This document shows positions 2,952-35,562 of a stretch of DNA of 44,272 bases, one piece after another; the first letter of the stretch is position 1; every line of letters starts with the position of its first letter. This DNA is from a virus. The stretch covers positions 1 to 44,272 of the IMG/VR virus record IMGVR_UViG_3300032086_002105; one strand, written 5' to 3'. The notes beneath the pieces were generated by a model, which was not told the DNA's origin, searched no databases, and was given only the letters and a program-made list of their open reading frames with translations. The translations under genes and the position numbers were made by a program.

Positions 2952-4517
2952 TTAAAATGTTCCACCATCAATAGCTGTAATTGCAACGTCACCTGAAGTG
3001 AGTGTAAAATTACTTGAGTCGAATGAAGCTATACCTTTACTTGAAGTAGTTGCATCGTTGATAGCAACATCACCACTAGTCACTGTGTAGTAAGAAGCAG
3101 AGAATGAAGCAATACCTTTGTTTGCATCTGTTGCGTCTTCAGCAGAAAGTGTTATACTTCCGTCAGCGTTTGTGACATCAAGTCCTTCACCAGCAGTTAA
3201 AGTTGCAAGTTCCATGTCTCCATTAGAACCATTACCAATTAAGACTTGTCCAGCTGTTGGAGCTGCACCGTCTACTGAAGTAATAGAACCTGTAAGAGCT
3301 AAACCACCAAATTTAACATTACCAGCTGTACCCGAGAATGTTGAAGATGAATCAGTTGCATCAGGTATAAATGTAAATGCAGCGTCTGTATCATCGTAAC
3401 CGAAGAAACCTACTTTTGCACCACCTGAGTTATACTTAAATTTCAAACCTCTATCAAGGTTATCGTCTGAAGCATCATCACCGATTTCAAATACTGGGTC
3501 AGCAACTGATGTAGTTGTTGAGTTTACAGTTGTAGTAGTTCCGTTAACTGTTAAGTTTCCAGTTACAACAACGTTTCCTGAAGCAGTCATTGTTGTTGCA
3601 GTGATGTCATCTGAGTTTAAGACACCTGAAACTGTCAAGTCATTTGTAACTGTTAAATCGTTTCCGATTGTTACGTTACTAGGTAAACCTACTGTTAAAG
3701 TTTGTCCTGAAGCAGAAGTTTCGATTTCGTTAGTTGTTCCAGCAATCGTTAATGATTGTGAATCTAAATCGACTGAACCACTGTTGGAACCGTCTGAGAA
3801 ATCTAAGTCTTCTAAAGTTGCAGTTGCTTGGATTTTATCCAAGATAGCTGCAGATGTCATTAATGATACGTCATCATCAGAGAAAGTTTCCCCTGAAGTT
3901 TGGACTACCGCACCATCTAACATTGCGAATTCAACAGTTCCAGCACCTATTACAGTGACACCTGATGAGTTCATTGTTACATCACCACTCATTGATACGT
4001 TGTCAAATGAATCAGTTCCGTCATGGACAAGTATTTGTCCTGTTGAAGGAGTATTGATATCAGTATCCGACGCACCTGCTAATGAAGATGTTGTTGAGAC
4101 AAAAGATAGGTTTCCTGAACCGTCTGTTGCCATAACTTGGTTTGCACTACCGTCTGTTGAAGGTAATACGAAAGCTAAGTCTGCTGCTAATGAATCGGGA
4201 GCTTTCAAAGCAACGGAATGTACACCGTTGTCTGAATCTTCCATTAACTTTAATGAACCACCTGAAGTGGAACCATTACCGACTTTTAAGTCAGCAGGGG
4301 TTGCAGAAGTTCCAGCCAATATATCCGTATAATACTTACCACCGATGGCTTGTATTAAAGGAGTTGAATTGTCTGAATCTACTGATTCAATAAAGAGTTT
4401 TGCACTAGCACCTGAATTCGCTCTATCCTGTACATACGCTAATTCACCTTCCGATAAGTCTGAGACTGTTGGAGCTGAAAGGCCTGTACTTCTTTTGATT
4501 TGAATTACTGTTGCCAT
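2952..4517 (-). CDS. Tail fibre-like structural protein, 521 residues
   Basis: The N-terminus (MATVIQIKRSTGLSAPTVSD, GELAYVQD) is the common attachment module of marine phage fibres. The body is low in charge and rich in Ser, Thr, Gly and Asp, with repeats such as IGNDLTVTNDLTVSG and GNLTVNGTTTTVNSTTTSV; the latter is shared with the leftmost fibre. Near the C-terminus two copies of KGIASF(S/D)...YYTV/FTLTSGDVAI occur, and the protein ends in DGGTF, the same five residues that end the 80-residue protein at 4673-4915. No chaperone or peptidase domain is visible. The 155-bp gap upstream holds three stem-loops, so its expression may be uncoupled from the preceding genes. Confidence 0.8.
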   Translation of the reverse strand: MATVIQIKRSTGLSAPTVSDLSEGELAYVQDRANSGASAKLFIESVDSDNSTPLIQAIGGKYYTDILAGTSATPADLKVGNGSTSGGSLKLMEDSDNGVHSVALKAPDSLAADLAFVLPSTDGSANQVMATDGSGNLSFVSTTSSLAGASDTDINTPSTGQILVHDGTDSFDNVSMSGDVTMNSSGVTVIGAGTVEFAMLDGAVVQTSGETFSDDDVSLMTSAAILDKIQATATLEDLDFSDGSNSGSVDLDSQSLTIAGTTNEIETSASGQTLTVGLPSNVTIGNDLTVTNDLTVSGVLNSDDITATTMTASGNVVVTGNLTVNGTTTTVNSTTTSVADPVFEIGDDASDDNLDRGLKFKYNSGGAKVGFFGYDDTDAAFTFIPDATDSSSTFSGTAGNVKFGGLALTGSITSVDGAAPTAGQVLIGNGSNGDMELATLTAGEGLDVTNADGSITLSAEDATDANKGIASFSASYYTVTSGDVAINDATTSSKGIASFDSSNFTLTSGDVAITAIDGGTF

Positions 4518-5270: not shown

Positions 5271-6746
5271 TTATACTTGAGTGTTTGAAGGATTTTTAGA
5301 GAATCTTGCAGCGGGGACTGTTTGGTGTATTTTCTCGGGTGTAGAGTTTTCATTTGTATAAATCTCTTGAACCTTTCTTACAGTTCCACCGTCATTCAAA
5401 TAAACTCCCTTCACTTTGGCAACTGGGCCGATACTTCTAGTTGTTGTATATGGTGTCTGATATATGTATGGTGACCTATGTTGATAATTTACTTGGTAAG
5501 GTGTCTGATAAATGTTAGGTTGTCTTGCAACATTTTGTGTACTTGTTTGTGCATTCACTGGGTTTCTATATGTGAATGGTGACCTAGTCTGATAAATTAT
5601 AGGTTGTCTAGCGTTTGCAATGTATGGATTTGATTCTTGTGCATTAACAGTTTTTTGAGCAGTTGTTTGTGAACTTACATTTGCAATCGGTGTTTGATTA
5701 TTAAGAGGCTGTCTATGTTGATAAGTAAACGGTTGTCTATGTTGATAGATTACTGGTTGTCTTACAGGTTGCTGATATTGATAGATTAATGGTTGTCGTG
5801 CATTTCTAATATTAGGTTCTTGACCTTGTGCAGTTGCAATAGGTGTTGTAAACGGACTCTGAAACGTAAATGGTTGTTGTGCATTTACAGGATTCGAGGA
5901 ACGATATATTGTATAAGGTTGTTGTGTAGCTGGTGCAATATATGGATACGGTATATTTAATCTAACATTCTCACCGAGATAGATATATGGGAGCTGATAG
6001 AAACCAGTCGCGGCACCACCTGCTACTGGTGTTCTAGCGGGTTGTAAATACCCTTGTGCAATCACTGGAGTTCTAGCTTCTGTAAACCATTGTTTACTTC
6101 CAGTAACGTCATAACCGTCACCCTGAGGCCCTTGATAAAAATCTATTTCTTCGGGGTCAGCAAATTTTGCTTGTTGTATTTGATACCAATAGATAAATGG
6201 TGAACGTGCAAACCCAACCTGTTGATAAGAAACTGGGCCGACATTCTGATACGTGAATGGATTTCTAGCATCCACAGGTTGTCTAGCAGGTTGCTGATAC
6301 GAGTAAGGAAATGGAGACCTGTATTGGTATGTAAATGGACTTTGTTTACTTACATTTGAAATAGGTGTTGTAAATGGACTTTGTTTACTTACATTTGCTT
6401 GATTAGTTTGTCCATTAGCAATATAAGGACTTTGTGTCGTACTTGGTTGTCTATATGAATAAATTGCTGGGTGTTGATAAGTCACCTGATATGTAAAAGG
6501 TGACTGACTTTGTGCTTGATATGTAAATGGAGTTTGTTTGTTTACATTAGTTAAAGGTTGTTGTCCAGCAACTGGCGACCTATAAGTTGAAGGTGTTTGA
6601 CTCGGACTTCTATATGAGGTCTGAGAACTCGCAGGAGTTCGTTTTACTATCTGTTTCGTTTCATTAGACTGAGCAGAAGCAGGTGTTTGACCTTGATACG
6701 GTTGTTGTATCGTTGACCCTATATTAATGTATATTTCGTCTGACAT
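5271..6746 (-). CDS. Gln/Tyr/Pro-rich low-complexity repeat protein, probable virion component
   Basis: Most of the 491 residues are short degenerate repeats of the form (Q/R)-(S/Q)-P-(F/I)-(T/I)-Y-Q, for example KQSPFTYQ, RQPVIYQHRQPFTYQHR and RSPFTYRNPVNAQ. The repeats occupy about residues 40-195 and 265-450, separated by a less repetitive part (DPEEIDFYQGPQGDGYD). Acidic residues are rare in the repeats while Tyr, Gln, Arg and Pro dominate, so the region is probably disordered and adhesive. Residues about 445-480 (VKGVYLNDGGTVRKVQEIY) look like the short beta repeat of minor tail proteins and may anchor it. The ATG at 6746 has GAGATGA upstream. It lies between fibre genes and shares their strand. 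Function is unknown. Confidence 0.75.
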   Translation of the reverse strand: MSDEIYINIGSTIQQPYQGQTPASAQSNETKQIVKRTPASSQTSYRSPSQTPSTYRSPVAGQQPLTNVNKQTPFTYQAQSQSPFTYQVTYQHPAIYSYRQPSTTQSPYIANGQTNQANVSKQSPFTTPISNVSKQSPFTYQYRSPFPYSYQQPARQPVDARNPFTYQNVGPVSYQQVGFARSPFIYWYQIQQAKFADPEEIDFYQGPQGDGYDVTGSKQWFTEARTPVIAQGYLQPARTPVAGGAATGFYQLPYIYLGENVRLNIPYPYIAPATQQPYTIYRSSNPVNAQQPFTFQSPFTTPIATAQGQEPNIRNARQPLIYQYQQPVRQPVIYQHRQPFTYQHRQPLNNQTPIANVSSQTTAQKTVNAQESNPYIANARQPIIYQTRSPFTYRNPVNAQTSTQNVARQPNIYQTPYQVNYQHRSPYIYQTPYTTTRSIGPVAKVKGVYLNDGGTVRKVQEIYTNENSTPEKIHQTVPAARFSKNPSNTQV

Positions 6747-27709: not shown

Positions 27710-28153
27710 ATGTCTAGAAAAAGTTATTCGGGCAAGTTTAAACCAAAGAACTATAAAAAATATAAGGGTGACCCCACCAAAATTATCTATCGTTCACTTT
27801 GGGAAAGAAGATTCATGGTCTATTGTGATAATAACCCGAGCATAATCGAATGGGGAAGTGAAGAAATCATTATACCATACAGAAGTCCAATAGACAAACG
27901 TGTTCATAGGTACTTTCCTGACTTTTATATCAAGTATGTCAATGGAAAAGGACAAGTTATACGGGAAATCATAGAAGTGAAACCCAAAAAACAGTTATCA
28001 CCACCCAAAGAACCCAAAAGAAGGACTCAAAGATACTTAAACGAGGTTGCAACCTACGTTGTTAACCAAGCAAAGTTCAAAGCTGCAAACGAATACTGTC
28101 AAGATAGGAAATATGGGTTCAGAATACTTACGGAAGACCACTTAGTAAAATGA
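27710..28153 (+). CDS. gp4: Head completion protein gp4
   Basis: The protein reads MSRKSYSGKFKPKNYKKYKG, then IIYRSLWERRFMVYCDNNPS, IIEWGSEEIIIPYRSPID and RYFPDFYI, with a later EVKPKKQ. This agrees closely with T4 gp4 (head completion, 150 residues). The arrangement PDFY...EVKPK recalls a TnsA-like PD-(D/E)XK nuclease fold, which the family is thought to have. The ATG at 27710 is preferred over an upstream GTG at 27701 because it starts where the conserved family does. It overlaps the next gene by ATGA and diverges from the gp48-like gene. Confidence 0.92.
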   Translation: MSRKSYSGKFKPKNYKKYKGDPTKIIYRSLWERRFMVYCDNNPSIIEWGSEEIIIPYRSPIDKRVHRYFPDFYIKYVNGKGQVIREIIEVKPKKQLSPPKEPKRRTQRYLNEVATYVVNQAKFKAANEYCQDRKYGFRILTEDHLVK

Positions 28154-28764
28154 AAAAGTTAATAATGTTCGATTTAGACGGGGTTTTGATAGATTCTTTA
28201 CCAAATATGAAACAATCTTGGGAAAAAACTTGTGAAATACATGATATAAGTGTCCCATTTAGTGAATATGAAAAAAGAATTGGTCGTCCATTCAGAGATA
28301 TCATAGAAGATTTGGGTATAGAATACACTTCTTCAATTAAAGACACCTATGATAAATCTTCTCTCGAACTATTAGACCAAATTGAGATATTTGAAGGTGT
28401 CCATGAACTACTTGTTGCACTTACAGTGATAAAAAAACGTAAGATTGCAATCTGTACTTCTAAAGATATCGATAGAACAAAGAAAATACTACAAAGAATT
28501 GCAACGTTTGATTATGTATGTTCTCCTAAACAAGGACTGAGAGGTAAACCTTCACCTGACCAACTACTTTACACTTGTGCATTCTGTAATGTTGACCCAA
28601 GTGATACACTTTATATTGGAGATATGGACGTTGATAGACAGGCTGCTGAGAGAGCAGGGATAGATTTTGTCTGTGCGAGTTATGGTTATGGTGATGTGGA
28701 AGGGGGTGTAGTGTGCGAAAAGAGTATACAGAGACCGATAGAACTACTAAAGTTGTTGGACTAA
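28150..28764 (+). CDS. HAD-superfamily phosphatase
   Basis: All four HAD motifs are seen: motif I FDLDGVLIDS with nucleophile D8 and D10, motif II CTS (T103), motif III GKPSPD (K133) and motif IV IGDMDVDRQAA (D158, D162). Residues about 17-80 form a helical cap, as in phosphoglycolate phosphatases and beta-phosphoglucomutases; KdsC-type KDO-8-P phosphatases usually lack such a cap. The 3' end overlaps the start of kdsB by 52 bp, which suggests a joint role in sugar metabolism, possibly removing phosphate from a KDO precursor. The substrate cannot be read from sequence. Confidence 0.85.
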   Translation: MKKLIMFDLDGVLIDSLPNMKQSWEKTCEIHDISVPFSEYEKRIGRPFRDIIEDLGIEYTSSIKDTYDKSSLELLDQIEIFEGVHELLVALTVIKKRKIAICTSKDIDRTKKILQRIATFDYVCSPKQGLRGKPSPDQLLYTCAFCNVDPSDTLYIGDMDVDRQAAERAGIDFVCASYGYGDVEGGVVCEKSIQRPIELLKLLD

Positions 28765-29468
28765 TTCCAGCAAGATACCATTCAACTAGATTTGAAGGGA
28801 AACCTCTGGCCTTGATAGCAGGAATTCCCATGATTCAGCGGGTTTACAATCAGTGCATACAGTCAAAATCACTCGCTAGTGTTATAGTGTTAACCGATAG
28901 TAGTGATATTTATGACTTCTGTTACTCCATGCGCATGAACTGTTTAATTGTGGACGAAGAATGTTTGACTGGAACAGACCGTTGTGCAAAAGGAATTAAA
29001 GATATTGAAGGAGATGTCTTTGTAAACATACAAGGAGATGAACCCCTGATTAATCCTGAGGCTATTGACCAGTTAGTAGAATCCCATACACTAGGTAGTG
29101 TATCTAATGCATATGTTGAGTTAGACTTTTATTCAGACAAACGACATGATAACAATGTGGTGAAAGTTGTAACAGATTCATACAATAATGCATTGTACTA
29201 TTCACGACTAAGTATACCATACATGCAAAAAGAAGAGTCCGTTGTCAAACAACAATTAGGTTTATATGCATTCAATAGAGAGTTCTTAGAAATGTTTCCA
29301 CACCTTCCAGTCCATGAATTAGAGAAAAGTGAATCAGTGGAAATGTTAAGGTTTGTTGAGAATGGGTTTAAAGTCAAAATGGTTAAGGTGGAAGACGAGG
29401 GATACTCGGTAGACACACCTGAAGATTTGGTGATAGTAGAAAATATTTTAAGGAAAAAATTATGTTAA
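28713..29468 (+). CDS. kdsB: CMP-KDO synthetase (3-deoxy-manno-octulosonate cytidylyltransferase)
   Basis: The enzyme couples CTP and KDO to CMP-KDO, the donor for lipopolysaccharide inner core. Family features are present in order: GLIPARYHSTRFEGKPLALI (residues 16-35), LTGTDRCAKG (85-94), VNIQGDEPL (104-112), YYSRLSIPY (162-170), QLGLYAFNREFLEMF (181-195) and GYSVDTPEDL (230-239). The 251-residue length is normal. The start is GTG at 28713, with GGAAGGGGG a few bases upstream. The gene lies in a late structural operon between gp4 and tail genes, so CMP-KDO would be made while virions assemble. It might alter the host surface or feed sugar onto phage proteins; both are inference. Confidence 0.92.
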   Translation: MRKEYTETDRTTKVVGLIPARYHSTRFEGKPLALIAGIPMIQRVYNQCIQSKSLASVIVLTDSSDIYDFCYSMRMNCLIVDEECLTGTDRCAKGIKDIEGDVFVNIQGDEPLINPEAIDQLVESHTLGSVSNAYVELDFYSDKRHDNNVVKVVTDSYNNALYYSRLSIPYMQKEESVVKQQLGLYAFNREFLEMFPHLPVHELEKSESVEMLRFVENGFKVKMVKVEDEGYSVDTPEDLVIVENILRKKLC

Positions 29469-31787: not shown

Positions 31788-32492
31788 ATGGCATTACCAA
31801 TACAGTCGACACCGACTTATAGAACAGTTTTACCAGTTAGTGGACAAGATATAGAATATCGTCCATTTCTAGTAAAGGAACAGAACATTTTAGTTCAGGC
31901 TAAAGAAGGTGCAGACACAAAACAGACTATGCAATCTGTTAAAAAATTGCTACAAGCAGTGACCAATGACAAGATAGTTATTGAGGAACTACCGACTACA
32001 GACTTAGAATGGTTATTCATTCAAGTAAGAAAAGTATCTGTAGGGGACACATCTAAATTGATGTTTCCATGCGTGAATAGAGAGTGTCCACATACAAAAG
32101 AGGTGACACTTAGTTTAGATGATATTCAACCTGAAGGTGAGATTCCACAAGACTTTACTGTTATGATTACTGACACGGTGGGTTTAACATTAAGTATACC
32201 TAATGTTGCTGGAGTCGAAAAGGTCGCAGACCTAAAAGAAGAAGCACAAACAGTAGAACTTATTAAAGAATCCATAGTAAACATTTTTGACGAAGAGAAT
32301 GTTTATGAAGGTGCAGATTTGACTAAATTAGAACGAGACGAATTTGTGGATAGTTTAACTTTCCCTCAGTTAGAACTTTTAGGAAAATGGTTCGACCAAC
32401 TTCCTAAATTAACAACTACACTGGAATGGGATTGTGAAGAGTGTGGAACGAAGAACGAGCAGAAGTTAGAAGGAATTCAGAATTTTTTTTAA
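31788..32492 (+). CDS. gp26: Baseplate hub protein gp26 (tail assembly chaperone-like)
   Basis: The 234-residue protein has YRPFLVKEQNILVQAKEGAD, a feature of the T4 gp26 baseplate family (PF12322), then LEWLFIQVRKVSVGD. Two cysteine pairs, C95/C100 (CVNREC) and C216/C219 (CEEC), probably bind zinc. The frame ends in NFF directly at a run of eight T, and the codons TTT TTT TAA form a -1 slippery site that joins it to the following frame. gp26 is not reported as a major part of the mature T4 baseplate, which suits an assembly role upstream of the tape measure. GAGGATAATATAATG is the start region. Confidence 0.88.
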   Translation: MALPIQSTPTYRTVLPVSGQDIEYRPFLVKEQNILVQAKEGADTKQTMQSVKKLLQAVTNDKIVIEELPTTDLEWLFIQVRKVSVGDTSKLMFPCVNRECPHTKEVTLSLDDIQPEGEIPQDFTVMITDTVGLTLSIPNVAGVEKVADLKEEAQTVELIKESIVNIFDEENVYEGADLTKLERDEFVDSLTFPQLELLGKWFDQLPKLTTTLEWDCEECGTKNEQKLEGIQNFF

Positions 32493-32689
32493 TAGCTCTT
32501 TCTCATGAAAGTGTGTTCAATCATTATAACACTAACTTTCAATTAATGCAACACCACAAGTATTCGTTGACTGAGTTAGACAATATGATACCTTGGGAAA
32601 GAGAAGTTTACATTAAGTTGTTAATGCAACATCTTAAAGAAGAGAAGTCTAGACAAGAGGCAGAAAATGCCAAAATGAAAAGACGATAA
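31788..32689 (+). CDS. Probable -1 frameshift product gp26-gp51-like, 300 residues
   Basis: An open frame reaching to 32689 lies in the -1 frame relative to gp26. It lacks a convincing start: the only upstream candidate is GTG at 32441, inside gp26, without a proper ribosome binding site. Slippage at T TTT TTT (32483-32489) right before the gp26 TAA would add 66 residues beginning LIALSHESVFNHYNTNFQLM and ending in a basic helix (EKSRQEAENAKMKRR). The added part contains YSLTELDNMIPWEREVYIKL, of the type annotated as gp51 hub assembly protein in marine phages. The G/GT chaperone pair of lambda has the same plan. Confidence 0.65.
32483..32511 (+). promoter_or_regulatory. Candidate -1 ribosomal frameshift site
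   Basis: The heptamer T TTT TTT in the gp26 frame occupies 32483-32489 and is followed at once by the TAA stop at 32490. Eight nucleotides further, CTTTC-TCAT-GAAAG (32498-32511) can form a small hairpin at the usual distance for a stimulator. The stem has only 5 bp, so the slippery run and the stop probably contribute most. Confidence 0.6.
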
Positions 32690-32705: not shown

Positions 32706-33086
32706 ATGGGTGATAAAAAAGAAAACAATACGAATGAAGTTGAAATTTCTTTAGAGAAGTATATGGCACTTATCGATAAACTCGATGAGCAAGAAGACAA
32801 CATTAAAGAAATGCAAGAGGAAGCTAAGAAAGCACGTGCTGGATTAGCACCTCCAAAAAGAAAAGTTATAGATTTGTTCTTAGATGACAATGACATAAAC
32901 GAAAAATCAATTATAGGTTTCATATCTTTCTTCTTAATGGTAGTGTTTGGTATGACTGACTTAGTCACAGCACTAGTATGGGATATGGACTTGAAAGTAT
33001 CAGAAACAATCTACACATCATTTGTTGTAGTGACACTTGGTGCATTCGGTATATCAGAAGCTGGTAAAGCATTCGGTGGAAAATAG
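32706..33086 (+). CDS. Two-helix membrane protein, possible holin
   Basis: Residues 1-60 are strongly charged and helical (LIDKLDEQEDNIKEMQEEAK), likely a coiled coil. Two hydrophobic segments follow, about residues 69-91 (IIGFISFFLMVVFGM) and 101-119 (IYTSFVVVTLGAFGI), with a short C-terminal GKAFGGK. There is a good AAAGGAAACGG binding site upstream. It lies between the hub genes and the tape measure. The topology would suit a small holin or a membrane anchor, but the position inside a tail operon also allows an assembly or injection role. No family name can be assigned safely. Confidence 0.7.
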   Translation: MGDKKENNTNEVEISLEKYMALIDKLDEQEDNIKEMQEEAKKARAGLAPPKRKVIDLFLDDNDINEKSIIGFISFFLMVVFGMTDLVTALVWDMDLKVSETIYTSFVVVTLGAFGISEAGKAFGGK

Positions 33087-33096
33087 GAACGTATAA

Positions 33097-35562
33097 ATGG
33101 CAACTGGCGACGATAAGTTAATTAGAGAACAACGGGAAGATTTAGCAAAAGAAATCAAAGAGGTTAATGCAAAACTGAAGCCTGGATTTCAGAAAATCAT
33201 TAAAGACTTAGAAGAAGTCTCTCCACAAGTTGCCAAAATAACAGCAGACTTTAGGGAATCTAGTAAAGATTCCTTTACGGGTGCGTTAGCAACTAAGAAA
33301 TTAAAAAACCTCACTGGTCTTGTCGACAAATATATGAAAGAGGGTGAGTCTGCCCTTGACCCTAAAGAACTCAAACAATTACAATCAAACTTCTCACAAG
33401 AAATTAATGGTGTAATGGAAACCTTCGACTTTGAAGGAATGAGACAGGCACAAATAGAATTCAACGAAACCCAAGACAAGATACAAGAACTTGAAGACGG
33501 AAGACAAGCAAGACTAGAACAGTCAATGAAAAGTAATAATGTTCTTGCTCAGTTGGATAAAAAAATTGAAGAAGCACGTTCCAAGTCAATTGGATTAAAC
33601 GGTGCAGCCGCGGATGCAAACAACAAACTTATACAAGATTTACAAAGAGAAAGAGAAGACAAAGCAGATAAAATGACTGCAGCCTATGATAGAGAAATTG
33701 CAGCCGAAAGAAAAACCTTAGAAGAAAGAAGTGAAGCACTTTCTGAAACAACAGAAGCATATAAAACAGGTTTAGAAAAAGCAACTAAATTTGAAGGTAC
33801 AGAGAAGTTCAGTAGTGGTATTGAAGAACTAACTGGAATTGATATACTTGGTTTTGCTGATACAGTCACTAAGAAAGTAAATGCAATAAGTGACATTATG
33901 GGTTCAATCGGTGGTGTATTTGGTGAAGCAGGTGAAGGACTCAAAGATAAAGTCACTGGGTTCATGGGTGGAGTCAAAGACTTTTTCACACCCAAAGGAA
34001 AAGAAGGTGGTGGAGATTCTCCTATCGGTGGTGCAATCAAAGGTAAAGCCGATGGAATGGCAAAAGGAATGTCTGACAAAGCTGCAGACAAAGGTGTCGG
34101 ATTACCTGCCAAATCAGGCAAGAGTGGTGGTTTCTTAAAATCAATTGCAAACGGAGTCAAAAAATTTGGTGACTCTAAAGTATTAAAAGGTGCATTAACA
34201 CTTGGTATACTTGGTGGAACAGTAGGACTTCTTGCAATAGGATTAAAAGCATTTAATGGATTAGACTTCAAAACTATGTTTAAAGGTTTTGTTGCACTTG
34301 GTGCTTTAATCATGTTTGCAAGACTTATCGGTAAAGCAACATTTGGAATTCTTAAAGGTGCTCTTGCAATCGGTGTATTGGGTGCAGCCTTAATTCCATT
34401 TGCATTTGCACTTAAGTTAATGAAAGACGCAGGTTTAGGAACTATACTAACCATTGCAGTCGGACTTACTGCACTAGGTGTAGCAGCTGCAATACTGGGT
34501 GGTATGCTTCCAGTAATGTTATTAGGTGCTGTTGCAATCGCAGCCTTAGGTGCAGCTCTGATTCCATTTGCATTTGCAGCTGAAATGGCTGCTGGTGCAT
34601 TCAATATGTTCATTGGTGACCTTATTAAGATTAGTTTGGTTGACGGTGCTAACTTAATTCTAGTTGGTGCTGGATTAGCAGCGATTGGTGCTGGTCTAGT
34701 AGCAATGACTGGTGGAAATCTATTAGGAAGTCTAATGGAAGGTATCGGAAGTCTATTCGGTGCAAAATCTCCTATGGAGAAAGTCACTGACTTTGCAAAA
34801 GGTTTACAAGATGTAGACATGACTAAGATTACACAACTAGGAGTTGCATTTGAAAAACTACAAAATGCAGAAGGTGCTATTAAGTTGTTTAGTGACGTTG
34901 ACGGAAAAGCAAAGAGTCTAAAAAAATTCGCAGAATCTATTGATTTATTATCAGCTGCACTTATCAGATTAGAAAGTGGTGTTCCTAAAGAAGAAAGTTG
35001 GTGGGATAAAATGACTTCATTTGCTGGAAAAATGATGGGAACCACTGAAGAAGAAAGAATTGCTGAACAAGCACAAAAATCACAACAGAGACTTGATGGT
35101 ATTTCGGGTGGTGCATATTACGCTGCAGATGAGTTAGACGACTTCATAGGAACAGGTGGAGACGTTCAAAGACAACCTAGTGCAATGTCAATGGAAATGT
35201 CACAAGTCAAAGCAGAACTTACTGGTCAAAGACAAGCAGAAGAAATTAGATTATCTAAACTGCAAGAAATGATGTTAGAACACAATATTGTTGCAAGACA
35301 AAAATTCGGAATACCACACTTATATTCACCCGAAGAGATTTCTGCAGCTGGTGTTCAAGACCAAGGTGGAATGGTTAAGAATGCAAGACAAGAAGTGTCT
35401 GCAACTGCTTCTACTGGAAATCAAATTGCAATGGCAAGTAATCAAAACATTGTCAATCAAGGAAGAACATACAATAACCTAAACAAACCACAAACTAACA
35501 ATGACGACTATTCAGTCTATAAGTTTGGTGGTGCAATGGGTATTGGTGACGAAGACTTCTAA
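33097..35562 (+). CDS. Tail tape measure protein (gp29-like)
   Basis: The 821-residue protein starts with about 220 residues of charged coiled coil (LIREQREDLAKEIKEVNAKL ... AAERKTLEERSEALSE). A Gly/Lys-rich linker follows (residues about 270-350), then a long hydrophobic Ala/Gly region at about 363-560 with repeats LGAALIPFAFALKLM and LGAALIPFAFAAEMA. The C-terminal 200 residues are polar with Gln-rich parts. This is the plan of tape measure proteins, and the position right after the chaperone pair confirms it. T4 gp29 has 590 residues, so at about 0.15 nm per residue this tail would be near 120 nm. Overlaps the convergent gene by 4 bp. Confidence 0.85.
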   Translation: MATGDDKLIREQREDLAKEIKEVNAKLKPGFQKIIKDLEEVSPQVAKITADFRESSKDSFTGALATKKLKNLTGLVDKYMKEGESALDPKELKQLQSNFSQEINGVMETFDFEGMRQAQIEFNETQDKIQELEDGRQARLEQSMKSNNVLAQLDKKIEEARSKSIGLNGAAADANNKLIQDLQREREDKADKMTAAYDREIAAERKTLEERSEALSETTEAYKTGLEKATKFEGTEKFSSGIEELTGIDILGFADTVTKKVNAISDIMGSIGGVFGEAGEGLKDKVTGFMGGVKDFFTPKGKEGGGDSPIGGAIKGKADGMAKGMSDKAADKGVGLPAKSGKSGGFLKSIANGVKKFGDSKVLKGALTLGILGGTVGLLAIGLKAFNGLDFKTMFKGFVALGALIMFARLIGKATFGILKGALAIGVLGAALIPFAFALKLMKDAGLGTILTIAVGLTALGVAAAILGGMLPVMLLGAVAIAALGAALIPFAFAAEMAAGAFNMFIGDLIKISLVDGANLILVGAGLAAIGAGLVAMTGGNLLGSLMEGIGSLFGAKSPMEKVTDFAKGLQDVDMTKITQLGVAFEKLQNAEGAIKLFSDVDGKAKSLKKFAESIDLLSAALIRLESGVPKEESWWDKMTSFAGKMMGTTEEERIAEQAQKSQQRLDGISGGAYYAADELDDFIGTGGDVQRQPSAMSMEMSQVKAELTGQRQAEEIRLSKLQEMMLEHNIVARQKFGIPHLYSPEEISAAGVQDQGGMVKNARQEVSATASTGNQIAMASNQNIVNQGRTYNNLNKPQTNNDDYSVYKFGGAMGIGDEDF

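Follow-up and report, generated by a model that had tools for sequence, protein, structure and literature searches.

The gp26-type gene of the virus studied here ends in a run of Ts, and the reading frame one base back stays open past its stop codon. This raises the question of whether the two frames are joined in one product by a -1 ribosomal frameshift, and which signals in the RNA might direct it. The window, meaning the whole stretch of DNA that was analysed, is a 44,272-base IMG/VR record (IMGVR_UViG_3300032086_002105) in which the gp26 part and the extension are each present in a single copy. From the comparisons described below, a -1 slip of some ribosomes very probably lets this marine T4-like virus produce one tail-building helper protein in two versions. 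The features of the locus are listed in Table 1.

Table 1. Features of the gp26 locus and its surroundings, in positions of the window.
Feature	Position	Strand	Details and basis
gp26-type gene, proposed tail assembly chaperone, short (N) form	31788..32492	+	234 aa plus TAA; Pfam T4_baseplate, phrog_150
Internal Shine-Dalgarno-like AAGGA in Glu-Gly codons, 8 nt before the heptamer	32470..32474	+	Anti-SD duplex, codon bias
Slippery heptamer T_TTT_TTT	32483..32489	+	X_XXY_YYZ register of the gp26 frame; conserved as T_TTT_TTN
-1 frame extension, gp51-type domain	32489..32689	+	66 aa plus stop; phrog_634; proposed fusion-only product
6-nt spacer with 0-frame stops TAA TAG	32490..32495	+	Letters; stop position in relatives
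Long-range stem, 5' arm CTCTTTCTCA	32496..32505	+	Covariation of pairs 8:113 and 11:110
Long-range stem, 3' arm TGGGAAAGAG	32594..32603	+	As for 5' arm; fold of 32490-32608
Small local hairpin CTTTC-TCAT-GAAAG	32498..32511	+	Starts 8 nt after the heptamer; overlaps the stem 5' arm
ORF with one membrane-like segment	32706..33086	+	126 aa; between extension and putative tape measure gene
Putative tape measure gene	33097..35562	+	821 aa, six hydrophobic segments; position and hydrophobicity only

The gp26 gene, its extension and their neighbors

The gp26 product belongs to the Pfam family T4_baseplate (2e-49, with 168.7 bits against a curated cut-off of 24.5) and also matched phrog_150 (1.8e-52). 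Its gene ends in the window as AAT TTT TTT TAA, so that eight consecutive Ts are found at the junction. The initial annotation had placed a T_TTT_TTT heptamer in the gp26 frame directly before the TAA, and it was found there, at 32483-32489 with the TAA at 32490-32492; a second 0-frame stop, TAG, follows at 32493-32495. The 66 further open codons that had been claimed for the -1 frame are also present. After a slip, reading would continue from 32489 through the junction ...NFFLIALSHE to a stop at 32687-32689. The interval originally given, 32441-32689, is correct at the extension stop, but its start is that of a mechanical GTG-to-stop ORF and the meaningful extension runs from 32489. The extension matched phrog_634 (1.4e-26), a family named 'baseplate hub assembly catalyst', and in addition the C-terminal end of phrog_150. 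Its structure model has three helices at a pLDDT of 79. A search of the locus against Rfam gave no match, and promoter and terminator scans around it gave nothing specific.

The gp26 protein was modeled by AlphaFold2 with a pLDDT of 91.9. When compared with the PDB by VIA-align, the model was closest to the HK97 tail assembly chaperone (2ob9, Z 7.1) and to YqbN (3klu, Z 6.8), which we take to be a prophage tail-chaperone-like protein; the next structure reached 4.7, and a Z of about 7 is below 8, the level where a chance arrangement is excluded. Foldseek found no match to the model in the PDB better than E 0.74, and a PDB sequence search gave chance-level matches only. The model has tail assembly chaperones as its nearest solved structures, which is suggestive of a similar role. 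The T4 proteins gp26 and gp51 are classed among the chaperones of hub assembly; assembly needs gp51, which is not part of the particle (PMC3004832). From its sequence, the present locus is predicted to encode a short form and a C-terminally extended form that share their N part.

The initial annotation had set the pair directly upstream of a tape measure gene. The extension is near such a gene but not immediately before it, because the 126-aa ORF at 32706-33086 intervenes, and the downstream gene is itself putative. This ORF has its hydrophobic segment at residues 69-87 and has matches in 40 related loci. For the 821-aa product of 33097-35562, no Pfam or PHROG match was found, and comparison with the Cr30 and Mosig proteins for tape measure identity gave no convincing similarity. 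Since the product has no family match, we infer that it is the tape measure protein from position and hydrophobicity. Two other regions of the window can be mentioned here. Within the structural gene region, 28150-29468 contains the gene of a HAD-type hydrolase and then an overlapping second gene, whose product looks by eye like a CMP-KDO type sugar-nucleotide cytidylyltransferase and has no PHROG match. On the minus strand, 5271-6746 encodes a 491-aa protein in which Q-x-P-F-x-Y-Q-like motifs are repeated over most of the length; its PHROG match is weak and lies close to the C-terminus.

Conservation of the slip site and other explanations for the second frame

Relatives were gathered from IMG/VR, GTDB contigs and isolate phages. 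A gp26 match was present in 248 loci, and dereplication left a set of 181. The extension is in the -1 frame in 242 of the 248, and five have no extension match. T4 stands apart, with its extension in the same frame as a gp26-like domain inside gene 51. The initial annotation had proposed checking whether the slippery site and frame relation are kept in related phages. They are: wherever both parts are present, the -1 relation occurs together with an in-frame T_TTT_TTN (242/242 loci), a frame relation that is evidently far beyond chance. The second slippery codon among these loci is TTC (118), TTT (102), TTA (19) or TTG (3). A 0-frame stop stands directly after the heptamer in 79 of the 242 and after one codon in 149, together 228. 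In a separate observation, loci L204-L247 lie on contigs of many GTDB bins from unrelated phyla, including archaea, and these look like phage contigs misbinned into genomes.

The dereplicated loci show that constraint is concentrated at the slip site. The first slip-site Phe codon is TTT in all 181, against 71% TTT elsewhere, and the codon preceding it ends in T, again in 181/181. Other Phe, Ser and Asn columns of gp26 are less constrained, the next best reaching 88%, 80% and 89%, respectively. The second slip codon encodes Leu in 20 loci. The T stretch is thus kept though the residue changes, because the codons that are not Phe are TTA or TTG. Downstream, variation is greatest at the third codon positions of the -1 frame. 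Over the first 44 codons this frame has no stop in the 181 loci, whereas the other two frames have 934 and 823. This comparative evidence strongly supports a programmed -1 frameshift.

There are other ways in which a second frame could come to lie behind gp26. The junction is a homopolymer, and indel errors are common at homopolymers. A sequencing error or a decayed gene is nevertheless excluded for practical purposes, because the relatives share the -1 relation; it recurs in 242 loci, whether these come from IMG/VR, from GTDB contigs or from isolate phages, and both frames are under purifying selection. The eight Ts of the window could also make the RNA polymerase slip, so that mRNAs of altered length give the fusion, as transcriptional slippage does occur in Thermus dnaX (PMC5009743). 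This is very improbable, because 119 of the 181 loci have a run of six Ts only, yet the heptamer register is kept in all of them; the Shine-Dalgarno-like motif upstream and the stem downstream also fit ribosomal frameshifting. Equally improbable is that the second frame is a separate gene with its own start or with coupling to gp26 termination. GenBank records do annotate it as one, with varying starts, and the upstream Shine-Dalgarno-like motif could in principle serve initiation. However, no ATG is found in 142 of the 181 loci at or before the first ten extension codons, which makes a separate gene unlikely, and in 90 of the 181 the -1 ORF lacks all three of ATG, GTG and TTG as far as 10 codons past the slip. 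The -1 frame is often open for 0-8 codons upstream only, the start annotated in P-HM2 cuts away half of the domain, and the frozen heptamer would be left unexplained. The initial annotation had stated that the second frame has no good start of its own. An ATG overlaps the gp26 stop in 11 of the 181. Relatives with a clear independent start, which had been named as evidence against a frameshift, are thus few, namely these 11 and the distant Vibrio K474 and Pseudoalteromonas XG4.

Junctions of the overlapping kind can be seen in several distant relatives (L028 at 3723-3905, L035 at 3744-3932, L030 and L032-L034), where the ATG overlaps the gp26 stop as TAATG or TGATG. The junction reads TGATG in Caulobacter Cr30 and Rhizobium N34, which would favor a separate gene in them. 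The loss of the heptamer in Vibrio K474 suggests a switch from frameshifting to coupled initiation, and the lineages with TGATG or TAATG junctions may have moved to coupled initiation.

The reading preferred here is therefore a -1 ribosomal frameshift. With high confidence, gp26 and the -1 extension can be regarded as a tail assembly chaperone pair of the G/GT type, whose fusion is made by a slip on T_TTT_TTT. Most ribosomes would read gp26 to its TAA and produce the short form. Some would slip back one base on the heptamer and produce gp26 fused to a helical domain of 66 residues. Both products would presumably chaperone the tape measure protein and the tail tube. That slippage takes place, and at what frequency, is inferred here.

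RNA signals around the slip site

The AAGGA within the Glu-Gly codons upstream of the heptamer may be one of the signals; the conserved motif lies 8-10 nt ahead of the heptamer. Across the 181 loci, the predicted duplex with the 3' end of the 16S RNA is strongest 8-15 nt before the heptamer, and its mean energy is -6.36 kcal/mol, compared with -4.85 in synonymous shuffles (t about -10). The Gly of the motif is nearly invariant (179/181 loci) and GGR codons are used for it more than elsewhere. The Glu before it is encoded by GAG in 66% of loci, against at most 41% at 24 other Glu columns. Judging from these patterns, the Shine-Dalgarno-like codons are under selection. A Shine-Dalgarno sequence is known to stimulate -1 frameshifting at a spacing of 9-14 nt, with dnaX and many IS elements as examples (PMC5009743).

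The second candidate signal is a long-range stem that begins 6 nt downstream of the heptamer and closes a loop of about 88 nt. It was first proposed by RNAalifold from 17 close relatives, and the fold of the window at 32490-32608 contains it (z -2.66). In an unbiased scan of column pairs over 176 diverse loci, its helix was the top result. The wobble pairs 8:113 and 11:110 ranked 1 and 2 of 1,416 third-position pairs (z 8.9 and 6.6) under permutation inside GC3 strata. On the protein tree, compensatory changes fall on 10 branches for one stem pair and on 8 for the other, the mean over 1,711 pairs being 1.0, although one unrelated, faster column pair also reaches 10. The stem has an energy of -11.4 kcal/mol, compared with -6.0 after synonymous shuffling, and nine control window pairs were near zero. 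Among 65 sequences, 38 cells were changed on both sides of the stem, compared with 19.7 when shuffled (0/500). About 54-56% of loci have a strong stem, whereas it is weak in S-PM2, P-SSM2 and S-H9-1.

It could be argued that, the frameshift itself being real, the stem arises as a by-product, because codon bias and protein conservation act on both arms. The two arms do encode conserved residues (ALSHE and PWERE), and the stem is missing in some lineages. But the covariation is at synonymous third positions, involves two pairs of one helix and survived stratification by GC3. In addition, half of the stem energy is lost when codons are shuffled synonymously with the protein left unchanged, and versions of the stem slid along the 65 sequences pair worse. 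A by-product is therefore unlikely, though less remote than the other explanations of the locus considered above.

The small hairpin that the initial annotation had reported 8 nt downstream is present at 32498-32511. Its conservation is weak (mean z -0.39) and it competes with the better supported long-range stem. It was rejected on this account as the main stimulator. The initial annotation missed both the Shine-Dalgarno-like motif and the long-range stem. A trade-off between the two was also considered, as their strengths across the 181 dereplicated loci gave a Spearman coefficient of -0.37. It was dropped and is not claimed, because phylogenetically independent contrasts gave r -0.13, which is not significant.

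The motif and the downstream stem are likely promoters of slippage. The upstream anti-Shine-Dalgarno interaction would promote it, as would a stem closing about 6 nt downstream, in the way known from the bacterial dnaX cassette. The chaperone frameshift of marine T4-like phages is probably under the control of a dnaX-like element consisting of the Shine-Dalgarno-like motif, T_TTT_TTN and a long-range stem with its 3' arm some 100 nt inside the extension; the stem would have been gained or lost between lineages while the motif persists. The dnaX cassette likewise has a Shine-Dalgarno-like motif upstream, a slippery heptamer and a downstream stem of about 10-11 bp (PMC5009743), but its gene and product are unrelated. 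The present element also differs in that the stem is long-range and a 0-frame stop lies inside the spacer.

Counterparts in T4 and other phages

In T4, the marine gp26 profile matches gp26 over its length (3.3e-18) and residues 5-185 of gp51 (2.2e-6). With the extension profile, residues 206-244 of gp51 were matched (1.3e-4), and gp26 was not. Because both profiles match gp51 and the first part alone matches gp26, T4 gp51 corresponds to the fused long form and T4 gp26 would be the counterpart of the short form. The proteins are homologous, gp51 being the longer with an extra C-terminal domain, but genes 26 and 51 of T4 are separate and divergent, whereas here there is one gene plus a -1 extension. 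T4 would then have two genes where these marine phages use a frameshift. The initial proposal, in which gp26/gp51 is the T4-type version of the lambda G/GT system, gains support from the short and extended T4 homologues and from the chaperones as closest structures. In comparison with lambda G/GT, the present loci have the T_TTT_TTN heptamer with upstream and downstream RNA signals.

A 2016 review described G-T frameshifting as conserved in long-tailed phages, with T4 excepted. Tail assembly chaperones of T4-like phages were since identified by Vladimirov, Gautam and Davidson (2022, Virology 566:9-15), according to the available text of PMC10885494 and PMC12846349. The former, by the PRFect authors, cites that study for short and fused genes, and the latter, on phage Adele, refers to it in connection with poly-T slippery sequences of T4-like phages. 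From these citations, the equivalence of gp26/gp51 with lambda G/GT appears to have been published already, poly-T slippery sites included. Since the citing papers mention fused genes and poly-T sites, the frameshift as such is probably already known. The Shine-Dalgarno-like motif and the long-range stem of the present loci are not mentioned in the available text of PMC10885494 and PMC12846349. No description of either was found in the largely open-access literature covered, and the two signals seem to be newly described. In the phage Adele work, the tail chaperone gene of a myovirus is likewise assigned a -1 frameshift at a poly-T motif on comparative evidence, but in other virus families, Vandenendeviridae and Andersonviridae, and with the motif GTTTTT rather than T_TTT_TTN (PMC12846349).

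The frameshift also bears on annotation. In cyanophages, the 'gp51 baseplate hub assembly catalyst' was reported to be without the first about 200 residues of T4 gp51 (Sullivan et al., 2010, PMC3037559). This is the same protein domain as the extension, treated there as a short separate gene, and the residues appear to be missing because gp26 would supply them through the frameshift. In GenBank, gp51 is annotated inconsistently in the isolate phages of loci L026, L027, L036 and L038-L042. In P-HM2 it is a 30-aa piece from an internal Met and in S-PM2 a gene just after the junction, and it is unannotated in the S-H9-1 and ACG-2014d records. In none of these isolate-phage GenBank records is gp51 joined to gp26. 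A frameshift would explain why the start of gp51 is annotated inconsistently or not at all, and the rule offered here is to annotate gp26 and gp51 as joined at T_TTT_TTN.

Lambda sets its proportion of short and long tail chaperone by recoding and T4 does so with two genes; the frameshift state can now be placed inside the T4 superfamily as well. The conserved RNA signals would provide testable handles on the chaperone ratio in a group of viruses that is very common in the ocean.
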